Shown: piece after piece, positions 1 to 4,959 of the stretch
Numbering within the stretch: the first letter of the stretch is position 1
How the letters are laid out: each line of letters starts with the position of its first letter
Assembly (NCBI GenBank): GCA_946478635.1
Contig: CAMLCX010000139.1
Coordinates: 1 to 10,389, forward strand
DNA: 10,389 bases
Direction: 5' to 3'
Source of the DNA: an uncultured Pseudomonadota bacterium
GTDB taxonomy: Bacteria; Desulfobacterota_B; Binatia; UBA9968
Notes under the pieces: generated by a model
What the model saw: the letters and a program-made list of their open reading frames with translations, nothing else
Told to the model about the DNA's origin: nothing
The model's database searches: none
Program-made: the position numbers and the translations under genes

Positions 1-2068
1 CGGTCAGGGTTGTGGACGTCATGGCGGTGGCGCGGGCCTGAGCGATGTTGACGCCATTTCGCTGCCAATTGACCACCGGCAAACCGTAACCGAAATTTTT
101 AAAGCCGGTGCCTTGAACAGTGAAGCTTGACGGCGGAGCCGCCAAATCCACGTTGGACGGCGTGATGGAATTAACTACGGTTGTGAAACCGCTGACGGTT
201 ACCGACGCACCATCACCGCCGGTGAAGTTAACGCTACCGGCAAAGGTACCCGACGCCGTCGGAGCGAAGCGAACCGTAACAATCTGACTTTGTCCACCGC
301 TGAGATTGTACGTGCCACCTGACACGATCGAATAGGGCCCGCTCGTAGTCGCAGTGCCTGAAAGTATCCCGCCACCGGTATTGTGTACAGTCAAGCTCTT
401 ATCTATTGAGCTGCCCACCGCGACGCCGTCGAAATCAATTGAGTTAGGCGTGACGCTGATAGTCGGGTTTGCGACGTTGACTGTTATTTTATCGTTACCG
501 GGAAACGTCAGTGTGTAGGTTCCTGCTGCGCTTGGCGTCCATTGGCCCGAATAGATTCCGTCTGCTGCGGCCTGGTCCGCGCTGGCCCCATTGTCCAGGA
601 GGGTCACCGATGAACTTCCCGGGCTGACAGAGACAACGACGTTGCCGTTGGGATTGGCGCAGTTGATGTTCAACGATGCGAGTACTACCGGTACTCCTGG
701 CGAAGCACTGATCGTGCTGGCGACCGGTTGCACGCGCGTCTGAATCGAGCTGTTTGAGCATGTCATAGCGCCGTTGGCATTGATCCGCTTTCCCGTGATC
801 GTATTGGCCATGGAACTGATAGTGTTGCCGCCGGCCAAGATCAGGTTTTTAATTACGCGCCAGTCCCTGTTGGGATCTTGGGCGTTGAGAAGTGCCGCTA
901 AACCAGCCACGTGTGGAGTGGCCATCGAAGTGCCGTCGAGAGACGTATACCCGCCTCCAGGTACTGTGCTTAGTATGCCTTGACCTGGGGCGCCGACATG
1001 CACTGTGCGCCGGCCATAGTTTGAGAAGCCGGCTTTGGCATCGGTGCTTCGGGTGGCGGCGACGCAGATGATATTAGCGAGGAAATAGTTACACGGGTAA
1101 AATGGCGTCGTATCGTTATTCTGGCCGACGCCAAACGCATTTCCGTTACCAGCCCCGGAGATAAAAAGTATGCCGAGCTGGCGCTGCTCGGCTATGGCGT
1201 CGTACAACGCCTGAGAATTCTCATCTCCACCCCAGCTATTGTTGGTGGCGACGATGTTGACGCCGCGCGCCTTCATGTCTTTGACATATTCCAGACACTC
1301 GATGGCGCCTTCCGTCGTGGCGGAGCCGCTGGCATCGAAAAACTTGCACGCCAGCAGTTTGACGTTCCAATTAACACCGACGACGCCGATGCCATTGTTG
1401 CCCACCGCGCCGATGGTGCCGGCGACGTGCGTGCCGTGGTAATGATCATCCATCGGATCAGAGTCGCCGTTGGCCACGTCGATCCCGAAGCAATCATCGA
1501 TGTAGCCATTGCCGTCATCATCGATGCCATTGCTGTTGCAGTCGGCCGTATTGCGAAACATATTGGCTGCCAAGTCCGGATGGTTGTAATCGATGCCGGT
1601 GTCGATCACCGCCACCACCGCGTTGCTGCTGCCGGTGGTAATATTCCACGCGCTCGGCGCGCTGATCTTGGTGAGCCCCCAAAGACTGCCAAAGCTCGGA
1701 TCGTTGGGTGTTGCGGTCAGGTTAGACTTGGCTGTCAAGTGTAAGATGTAGTTGGGTTCGGCGTACAGGACGTCGGGGTCTTGTTCGTAAAGGTCAATGG
1801 CTTCCTGGACCGAGACGTTGCGCGGCAACTTGATCACTTCCAGCCCGCGGACGGTTTTAAATACTTTCTTGCGGCTGCCCGAGACCCGAAAACGCGCTAG
1901 ATCCTTGCGCGACTCGTCGACTCCATCGCGGAACCTGACGATGACCTCGTCGGAAACATGCTCGGGAACCCGGGGCTGTGATTGCGCCGCATACTGAGAA
2001 GTGGAACGTGTATCCAATGCGAGAAGCGCAAGCAGGAAGAAAACAGTAAGGCCAATCCGCTTGGTCAT
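1..2068 (-). CDS. Secreted subtilisin-family (S8) serine protease, C-terminus cut by window edge
   Basis: Read on the minus strand from ATG at 2068, the frame is open for 689 codons to base 2, so the gene continues beyond the window. Seen: a signal peptide (residues 1 to about 28, hydrophobic core at 5-18); an inhibitor-type propeptide at about 40-110 (begins DEVIVRF, ends YAEPNY); then the S8 catalytic domain at about 125-425. The triad is Asp156 (VIDTGID), His211 (HGTHVAGT) and Ser381 (GTSMATPH), with oxyanion-hole Asn308 (GAGNGN). Residues 176-193 form an Asp/Asn/Gly-rich loop (NGIDDDGNGYIDD) typical of calcium-binding inserts in these enzymes, flanked by Cys177 and Cys193. After the protease come beta-rich modules: an Ig-like segment (about 445-530), an ASH/choice-of-anchor-D-like segment (about 534-630) and the start of an IPT/TIG-like segment (from 631). 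All catalytic residues are present, so an active extracellular or surface protease is inferred; the substrate is unknown. Start supported by AGGAGG 5 bases upstream. Overlaps the PrcB-like gene by four bases. Confidence 0.95.
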   Translation of the reverse strand, partial: MTKRIGLTVFFLLALLALDTRSTSQYAAQSQPRVPEHVSDEVIVRFRDGVDESRKDLARFRVSGSRKKVFKTVRGLEVIKLPRNVSVQEAIDLYEQDPDVLYAEPNYILHLTAKSNLTATPNDPSFGSLWGLTKISAPSAWNITTGSSNAVVAVIDTGIDYNHPDLAANMFRNTADCNSNGIDDDGNGYIDDCFGIDVANGDSDPMDDHYHGTHVAGTIGAVGNNGIGVVGVNWNVKLLACKFFDASGSATTEGAIECLEYVKDMKARGVNIVATNNSWGGDENSQALYDAIAEQRQLGILFISGAGNGNAFGVGQNNDTTPFYPCNYFLANIICVAATRSTDAKAGFSNYGRRTVHVGAPGQGILSTVPGGGYTSLDGTSMATPHVAGLAALLNAQDPNRDWRVIKNLILAGGNTISSMANTITGKRINANGAMTCSNSSIQTRVQPVASTISASPGVPVVLASLNINCANPNGNVVVSVSPGSSSVTLLDNGASADQAAADGIYSGQWTPSAAGTYTLTFPGNDKITVNVANPTISVTPNSIDFDGVAVGSSIDKSLTVHNTGGGILSGTATTSGPYSIVSGGTYNLSGGQSQIVTVRFAPTASGTFAGSVNFTGGDGASVTVSGFTTVVNSITPSNVDLAAPPSSFTVQGTGFKNFGYGLPVVNWQRNGVNIAQARATAMTSTTLT

Positions 2069-2643
2069 GGGAGCCTCCTGAACACGACTTTTTCAGCACG
2101 AGGTATTGTGATTCGAACAATATGAAATGCTTGGGTGAAGGCTTGTGTCGATATCGCGCCCGGCCGTGGTTCCTTTTCGCTAAAAGAGACAGTCAGCACG
2201 CCGTTGGTTTGTTCCACGCTGATGATGGCTATCTCGTAGCCACCGGTCGGTTTGTCACCTAAAAAGACTGCTACGACTATTTGATCACCAAAGTCTACGG
2301 CTGGCGGAGGCGGTTGATTTGCTCTGATCGAGGCGTGCCGTTGCCAGAAGTCCTTCCACTCGGACTGCTCGCGAATGACGATCTGCAAACGCTCCTTCAC
2401 GCCGCTGTGAATCCCCTTATCGACAGTCTGAAAAGCAGCTTGCTTTGCCAGCTGCGTGTCGCTTGTCGCCATGGCAATGACCCCGAGAGGCCGTTCCGTC
2501 AGGCTCCCATCGGCTCTAGAAAATGAGACGACAGACGGGATTGTGAGGCATATCCAAGCAAGGGAATGTCTGGTGGGGCAGCAGGCGTAATTTGAAGCGT
2601 TGAAAAGGTTGAACTGCGAGCGTGTACTTAGGGCTTTAGCCAT
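2065..2643 (-). CDS. PrcB C-terminal domain-type exported protein, likely partner of the adjacent subtilase
   Basis: 192 residues. The C-terminal half (about 85-190) matches the pattern of the PrcB_C family: a hydrophobic strand after VDF (QIVVAVFLG, 121-129), the characteristic KPTGGYEI turn (131-138), a second strand pair (VLTVSFSEKEPRPG, 149-162) and a closing FHIVRITIP...VVF segment (173-188). PrcB is the small accessory component of the Treponema denticola dentilisin protease complex; other family members are small exported proteins of unclear activity. Near the N-terminus, residues 27-42 are hydrophobic and could be a signal peptide or lipoprotein-like leader, although the preceding 26 residues are long and only weakly basic. 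An in-frame ATG at 2472 (Met58) is an alternative start but would lose the export signal; the chosen ATG has CAAAGG (2652-2657) 8 bases upstream. The TGA stop shares bases with the protease ATG. The family call is from motif recognition; its role as chaperone, inhibitor or adaptor for the protease is inference. Confidence 0.8.
   Translation of the reverse strand: MAKALSTRSQFNLFNASNYACCPTRHSLAWICLTIPSVVSFSRADGSLTERPLGVIAMATSDTQLAKQAAFQTVDKGIHSGVKERLQIVIREQSEWKDFWQRHASIRANQPPPPAVDFGDQIVVAVFLGDKPTGGYEIAIISVEQTNGVLTVSFSEKEPRPGAISTQAFTQAFHIVRITIPRAEKVVFRRLP
2074..2079 (-). promoter_or_regulatory. Ribosome binding site AGGAGG of the subtilase
   Basis: A perfect AGGAGG on the minus strand lies 5 bases before the protease ATG (2068-2066), inside the last codons of the upstream PrcB-like gene. 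It fixes the protease start and supports translational coupling through the ATGA overlap. Confidence 0.85.
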
Positions 2644-3253: not shown

Positions 3254-3417
3254 CATTACCGCGCTTTACGCAAAGGCGCATTTGCTCACTTCGCAGATTG
3301 AAAGTGAACTTTCCGGCTACGTCGCGATGAGCTTATTTGTGGGGCTTACGTGATCGTTGCTCGGAAGGCCGCGTGAAGCAAGCTGAAAAGGGCCGGGGAA
3401 TATCTCGAAACTCAATC

Positions 3418-4959
3418 ATGAAAACTGTCATTTATAGGAGCACTTTTAAACTGCTCGTCTTCGCGAGTTTTATTTTGTTGATTGCGTTTCTATCAATAAT
3501 ACATCTAGAAAGAGTTCCCCCTTTGGGGTGGGACGAAGGTTGGACTTTGTCCGTCGCCCGCAACTGGGCTGAGAAAGGCGTATATGGGCGGTTGCTTAGC
3601 GGAAACCCGACTTCTCCAGGACTCGCAGCATCATTTACAGTAACGACACCTATCGCTATCGTTTTTCGATGGCTTGGTGTTGGGATATGGCAAGGAAGAA
3701 TAGTAGGTTTAATCTTTTTGATCGGAGCGGTAACTCTCCTCTACGTTTTGGCGGTACAAATCTATGATCGAACCGTCGCCCGTTTTGCGCTTGTGGCTTT
3801 GTTCACGATGTCCATGTTTGCGGAGTGGCATCCAATCATTATCGGACGTCAGGTTTTAGGTGAAGTACCGATGCTATTCTTTATCCTAGGTGGATATTTC
3901 TGTTTTTATGTAGCTCTTTCGCGCTCTTTGTGGTTCATGCCTTTCGCTGTGTTGTTGTGGGCGACAGCGGCAGTAACGAAAGCTCAAGTCCCTCCGTTCT
4001 TTGCGGCATCATTGCTTGCGCCCTTGGTGTTGACCCTCTGGTCGCGGCAATGGCGGCTTGCGATCGTCATCGGTAGCGCTTTGGCATCAACTTTTCTGGC
4101 GGTTAAGTGCCTTCTTTGGCTTCAGAACGGGATGTTTGCCGAGCAAAGAACGGCACTGCCGGAAATCTACGGTACCTTTGCCTTTGTGCCAATTCTTCAA
4201 ATTCGGTGGCGCGCGTTCCAGGCGTCACTGTTTCTTTTGCCAACTATTCTTGGGATCCTTTATGAAACCCGCAACTCACGCCAGCTTACTCATTCAAGCA
4301 GACTGAAAAGCGATATCGATATCCTTCGCGTAACACTCTTGGTTTTCACCGGGAGTTGGTTAGGCTGGTATATTTTTGCGTCGAATCCTGCTTATAGATA
4401 CGCATTCGTGCCCGGCTTTGTTGGAAGTATTTTTACGGCTAAGCTTCTACGGGATCTAATTGATCGCGAAGTAGAAGTCTTTTCTTGGAAAAAGACCAGG
4501 ACGTCCGAGGCCACGAAAGCAACGCGACAGCCGGCCTCTCCCGAGCTGTTGTTGGCGTTGTTGCTAATCACCGTGTGGTCCTTCTCGACATTTAGAATGC
4601 TTTATCAGGTTTATGTCGTAGAGGGCGATGAATCCGCAACGCAGGTGGCTCAGTTTATAAATAGTCAAGCGTCTCCAGGTTCGCTAATTGAAACCTATGA
4701 CAGTCAAATACACTTCCTGTTAAATCGCCGCTACCACTTCCCGCCAGATCAGGTCCACTTGGATCTGATTCGCCGTACATTCCCGGGCAATCACACAAAA
4801 GTACGAGTCGACTACGACCCATTGGCTTCAGACCCCGACTATTTGGTAGTGGGCGATTTTATAAAAGACTTAGGGCTTTATGATCCAGTGCTTAGAACCG
4901 ATGCCTTTCGGTTGATTCGAGAATTCAAGCAGTATCGAGTCTACAAAAGGGCTAGATAG
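3418..4959 (+). CDS. Multi-pass membrane glycosyltransferase-like protein (GT-C fold, ArnT/PMT family 39 type)
   Basis: 513 residues from the ATG at 3418. A first membrane helix (about 10-30) is followed by an external loop containing an acidic pair, Asp39-Glu40 (PPLGWDEGWTLS), the position and form of the catalytic Asp/Glu in GT-C enzymes that move sugars from polyprenyl-phosphate donors. Many further hydrophobic segments follow to about residue 410 (including regions near 78-100, 105-125, 140-180, 190-235, 260-280, 305-330 and 380-400), then a soluble tail of about 100 residues, a common GT-C layout. The likely job is transfer of a lipid-linked sugar to lipid, glycan or protein on the outer face of the inner membrane; donor and acceptor cannot be read from sequence. 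Start is uncertain: the frame is open back to a TTG at 3337, and GTG at 3373 has GGAAGG 4 bases before it, whereas ATG 3418 lacks a clear ribosome binding site but places the first helix normally. Base use is visibly more AT-rich than in flanking genes, suggesting transfer or a variable surface-glycan function. Confidence 0.75.
   Translation: MKTVIYRSTFKLLVFASFILLIAFLSIIHLERVPPLGWDEGWTLSVARNWAEKGVYGRLLSGNPTSPGLAASFTVTTPIAIVFRWLGVGIWQGRIVGLIFLIGAVTLLYVLAVQIYDRTVARFALVALFTMSMFAEWHPIIIGRQVLGEVPMLFFILGGYFCFYVALSRSLWFMPFAVLLWATAAVTKAQVPPFFAASLLAPLVLTLWSRQWRLAIVIGSALASTFLAVKCLLWLQNGMFAEQRTALPEIYGTFAFVPILQIRWRAFQASLFLLPTILGILYETRNSRQLTHSSRLKSDIDILRVTLLVFTGSWLGWYIFASNPAYRYAFVPGFVGSIFTAKLLRDLIDREVEVFSWKKTRTSEATKATRQPASPELLLALLLITVWSFSTFRMLYQVYVVEGDESATQVAQFINSQASPGSLIETYDSQIHFLLNRRYHFPPDQVHLDLIRRTFPGNHTKVRVDYDPLASDPDYLVVGDFIKDLGLYDPVLRTDAFRLIREFKQYRVYKRAR

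Follow-up and report, generated by a model that had tools for sequence, protein, structure and literature searches.

A PrcB-like gene overlapping a subtilase gene as a candidate protease-partner unit, and the patchy recurrence of PrcB_C-S8 pairs in several phyla

In the 10,389-nucleotide stretch of DNA analysed here (the window), a gene for a PrcB-like protein runs directly into a gene for a subtilase of the S8 family, which raises the question of what such a protein does for the protease encoded beside it. Sections of a 2021 paper on Treponema denticola describe PrcB as required for, and interacting with, the protease PrtP, and as a protein without homologs outside the oral Treponema (PMC8167434). 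The features of the present pair are collected in Table 1.

Table 1. Coordinates of the PrcB-like gene, the subtilase gene and their junction in the window
Feature	Position	Strand	Basis
PrcB_C-domain protein, 192 aa	2065..2643	minus	ORF and PF14343 profile match
AGGAGG within the PrcB-like gene, likely the protease's ribosome-binding site	2074..2079	minus	sequence
ATGA overlap of PrcB-like stop and protease start	2065..2068	minus	sequence
S8 subtilase, first 689 of 856 aa	2..2068	minus	ORF and Pfam; 3' end beyond the window edge

The 192-residue protein matches the PrcB_C profile (PF14343) with 47.6 bits over residues 123-178 against a curated cut-off of 24, which bears out the family assignment made in the initial annotation. 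A protein search with this sequence returned 34 proteins, the window's own entry (P0001) being one of them, and all carry a precomputed PF14343 match. The hydrophobic stretch seen by eye at about residues 28-42 is likely an export signal, and the folded domain extends over about residues 68-192. An AlphaFold2 model of residues 62-192 (pLDDT 93.3, pTM 0.87) displays one helix and seven strands, and its comparison with solved structures gave no convincing or informative match.

The full protease is available as a database copy of 856 residues (P0035), which is 100% identical over the query; 689 of these residues are encoded inside the window. It consists of an N-terminus that is hydrophobic by eye, a fervidolysin-type prodomain (43.6 bits), an S8 domain (PF00082, 161.5 bits) and choice-of-anchor X and D (ASH) domains, the ASH score being 27.6 bits against a cut-off of 27. 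The residues of the Asp-His-Ser motif (D156, H211 and S381) are present, and the protein is a member of the S8 family. Of the Ig/ASH/IPT architecture proposed at first, the ASH part is retained, but no Pfam match to an IPT/TIG domain was obtained at E up to 0.1. In the tail of P0035 one motif occurs twice, at 648 and again 111 residues further on, at 759. The prodomain and the S8 domain are shared with fervidolysin/thermitase-type subtilases, and some homologs of the window protease carry the source name thermitase; the window protease differs from these in being encoded with a PrcB-like partner.

At the junction, the stop codon TGA of the PrcB-like gene (2067-2065) overlaps the start codon ATG of the protease gene (2068-2066), four bases being common to both, and this leaves no space for an intervening gene. 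The AGGAGG motif lies 5 nt ahead of the ATG. The coordinates agree with both features as originally described, the ATGA overlap and the internal ribosome-binding site, and the same junction is found on a contig labelled Deltaproteobacteria bacterium (L001), where the 4-bp overlap, the AGGAGG and the first nine bases of the protease gene (ATGACCAAG) are identical to those of the window. This contig, which stops 58 codons into the protease gene, is syntenic with the window (ABC exporter, glycyl-tRNA synthetase, PrcB and protease), and its glycyl-tRNA synthetase is 89% identical to the window's. Between the PrcB and glycyl-tRNA synthetase genes, the window encodes a 540-residue hydrophobic protein without a Pfam match (3337-4959, plus strand), and L001 has just about 0.3 kb in its place.

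Overlapping junctions are also found in the G003 phylum, labelled Candidatus Rokuibacteriota/Rokubacteria, where six of ten junctions have a 4-bp overlap with an ATG or GTG start (L003, L026, L108, L109, L110 and L115). At L112 the overlap exists only with a TTG start, a later ATG being used otherwise, and at L111, L113 and L114 the two genes are separated by 26, 15 and 14 nt, respectively. The six overlapping pairs resemble that of the window in the type of protease, the PrcB-first order and the overlap itself, but some of their PrcBs carry a lipobox-like site and no exact AGGAGG precedes the start.

When a window-type protease was defined by at least 64% identity across the query stretch, a threshold chosen once the list had been seen, it was recorded in 10 of the 95 genomes of the G003 phylum, and PF14343 was present in nine of these ten as compared to three of the other 85. 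In those three (G093, G095 and G115), PrcB stands beside a subtilase of another lineage. Three further genomes, all without PF14343, have a protease match at E up to 1e-20 and 42-48% identity; with this E value in place of the identity threshold, the domain is present in 9 of 13 protease genomes. In the one exception among the ten, G086, the protease is cut by a contig edge, there is no PF14343 match, and no PrcB match was found in the 6 kb examined. The PrcB_C and protease genes of G075 and G005 are on separate contigs, and in G002 the PrcB adjoining the window-type protease matches over its C-terminal half only, a second and whole PrcB being located near another S8 gene. The G005 protease (L116:3220-3290) is preceded by what is by eye a short PrcB-like tail ending in ATGA, and the whole PrcB of this genome (L005:5953-6411) is at another site, flanked by the neighbours that the pair has in G026.

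Genomes positive for PF14343 numbered 12 of 95 in the G003 phylum, 8 of 247 in the G001 phylum, 17 of 247 in Spirochaetota, 12 of 251 in Chloroflexota (one below the cut-off), 8 of 398 in the G012 phylum (G012 is a Natronospira) and 105 of 111 in Deinococcota, nearly all of the last with one match. S8 genes were located in the positive genomes of the G003 and G001 phyla, Spirochaetota and Chloroflexota, and were within 5 kb of 11 of 13, 2 of 8, 11 of 18 and 1 of 12 PrcB_C genes, respectively, the single chloroflexotal pair being convergent. Pooled over the four groups, 25 of 51 PrcB_C genes have an S8 neighbour against 0.44 expected under random placement, and the probabilities attached to this difference are indicative only, since related genomes are non-independent. 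One of the 25 (G379) has an S8 fragment only, at a contig end, and the pair of G001, cut by a contig end, was left out. An S8 gene lies directly upstream of PrcB_C in three of the eight cases in the G012 phylum. Among 26 genomes drawn by PrcB similarity, 5 of 28 PrcB_C genes (30 domain matches) have an S8 gene within 5 kb, the G001 pair being excluded here too.

In Deinococcota, the flanks of the 30 best-scoring loci from the 105 positive genomes, followed for at most about 1.5 kb, showed no S8 gene. The S8 search in this phylum covered, among the matches listed, 42 of the 105 together with G023, and among the same matches G614 has a PrcB_C-S8 pair 3.6 kb apart on opposite strands. No S8 match was obtained in 9 of the 68 PrcB_C genomes searched (5 of 26 and 4 of 42), one of the five being G001, whose protease is cut off. 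The survey thus reveals an enrichment of PrcB_C genes beside S8 genes that reaches outside Treponema-type loci. The earlier proposal of general partners outside spirochaetes is supported in part by the strong linkage in the G003 phylum, alongside that in Spirochaetota, and by the partial linkage in the G012 and G001 phyla, but the word general does not suit the counts from Chloroflexota, Deinococcota and the genomes with no S8 match. The pairing is not a local accident, but it is patchy.

The S8 genes so linked belong to more than one lineage. A tree was built from 65 S8 domains, 23 linked to PrcB_C and 42 unlinked, by a quick search; several rows have long branches, the unlinked domains are a selection, and the G012-phylum pairs, discovered afterwards, were not included. 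Linked domains are found in the window group, in the dentilisin group, in that of G093, G095 and G115, at the second locus of G002, in G889, and in a further group with the S8 gene first (G119, G265, G366 and G402). At least seven changes of label are forced by the starred branches and the fewest possible on the tree is 11, as compared to a mean of 19 after shuffling. The order of the genes also differs by lineage, the protease gene being first in some and PrcB in others. Since similar pairs are present in several phyla, the helper has probably been reused as a partner of subtilisins. In a wider and still tentative reading, PrcB_C proteins may be widespread dedicated extracytoplasmic partners of subtilases, with a fold absent from solved structures and joined to several S8 lineages in both orders, and dentilisin may be the oral-spirochaete case with PrcA in addition.

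The description of the pair as dentilisin-like is apt as an analogy but not as a statement of membership. The window PrcB scores 77.3 bits with the dentilisin PrcB equivalog (NF033596, denti_PrcB), whose cut-off of 125 is reached by L123, L125, L135, L136 and L138, and the protease, with 689 residues in the window and its best stretch at 115-398, scores 89.4 bits with NF033595 (denti_PrtP) against a cut-off of 300. Five Spirochaetota loci (L122, L123, L125, L135 and L136) carry PrcA as the middle gene, flanked by PrcB and the protease, and the PrcBs of four of these pass the dentilisin cut-off, that of L122 being the exception. PrcA was found at E up to 0.001 in none of 19 other PrcB_C genomes (G001, twelve of the G003 phylum, G119, G265, G366, G379, G402 and G889), and both dentilisin controls (G591 and G532) were positive; the named control genome of Deinobacterium chartae gave a PrcA match below the cut-off. 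The earlier remark that no PrcA-like gene stands beside the pair holds between the two genes and on the PrcB side, the DNA beyond the protease being outside the window. In both systems a PrcB_C protein is encoded first, upstream of an S8 gene on the same strand (PrcB-PrcA-PrtP in T. denticola). The window pair differs in the direct ATGA overlap, in having no PrcA between the genes, in a PrcB without lipobox and, as compared to PrtP, in a protease N-terminus without cysteine and a choice-of-anchor/ASH tail. An identification of the pair as dentilisin was rejected on the two scores, the missing intermediate PrcA, the lack of PrcA in the 19 other genomes and the missing lipobox, the last as judged by a simple sequence pattern. 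We think, by analogy, that the pair may work like the PrcB-PrtP half of dentilisin.

The sections of the T. denticola study state that prtP is still transcribed after a non-polar deletion of prcB, PrtP itself being undetected, and that the purified dentilisin complex is equimolar (PMC8167434). As far as these sections go, the two observations speak for a subunit acting in folding or stability rather than for an inhibitor, and by analogy PrcB is most likely an exported subunit of this kind for its own protease. The two genes would then be a translationally coupled unit for a secreted protease with a partner dedicated to it. Of the two products, the PrcB-like protein would be made first and exported, and the strong site within its gene would serve to translate the protease in a linked ratio. 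Once outside the cytoplasm, PrcB may bind the subtilase precursor, which may require it in order to fold, remain stable or become active, and PrcB may perhaps persist as a subunit, a helper role modelled on that of T. denticola PrcB. This explanation is regarded as rather probable and as the best one because of the domains, the overlap, the same junction in L001, the recurrence with several S8 lineages and the lack of PrcA in the 19 genomes. The two-gene version without PrcA offers a simple system for studying the effect of PrcB on a subtilase, and from the recurrence of the pairing partner genes can be predicted for secreted proteases that now stand alone in annotations.

PrcB could instead be an inhibitor that restrains the subtilase until it is in place and is made first, like an antitoxin. 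The PrcB-first order and the overlap suit a protein needed ahead of the enzyme, and the conserved GxKPTGGY loop of PrcB is reminiscent of the NPTTGY loop of the I42 (chagasin/ICP) cysteine-protease inhibitors. However, ten PrcB_C proteins searched at E up to 5 gave no I42 or BsuPI Pfam match, other lineages have the protease gene ahead of PrcB, and loss of PrcB in T. denticola, as described in the sections cited, removes PrtP and its activity (PMC8167434), which leaves inhibition an unlikely role. It is more doubtful still that the main task of PrcB, as a subunit, is to anchor or localise the protease at the cell surface. The same sections describe a T. denticola PrcB that retains its lipid and propose an anchoring role for it (PMC8167434), and a simple sequence pattern detects a lipobox-like site in 40 of the 77 PrcB frames examined (some loci counted twice), but with this pattern the site is absent from the window PrcB, the L001 PrcB and many other PrcBs linked to S8 genes.

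The two genes may also be mere neighbours, or share one operon, with separate functions, PrcB having an extracytoplasmic task of its own. Such a task would agree with the near-universal presence of PrcB_C in Deinococcota, where the 30 loci show no link, with the fusion of PrcB_C to a zinc finger in Elusimicrobia, and with Methanocaldococcus jannaschii, which matches PrcB_C and is not among the controls matching S8, suggesting S8-free uses of the domain. PrcB_C has, however, been paired repeatedly with S8 genes of different lineages, with either gene first, which argues against separate functions and makes them improbable.

In the Elusimicrobia proteins (L010:5215-6345 and L017:3269-4501), PrcB_C is combined with an N-terminal zf-HC2 zinc finger of the anti-sigma type; the PrcB_C score is 34.9 bits in L010 and 15.3, below the cut-off, in L017. 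Three PrcB_C domains occur in a single protein at L020:5893-7179, and in Deinococcota (L066-L095) the domain resides mostly in open frames of about 345-425 residues. L137:2668-3324 encodes a dentilisin-like PrcB, which resembles the PrcB of L138; no S8 match was found there in the 6 kb examined, and one S8 gene is present elsewhere in the genome. Two very similar PrcB genes (L123:2720-3331 and 10223-10891) flank a dentilisin operon.
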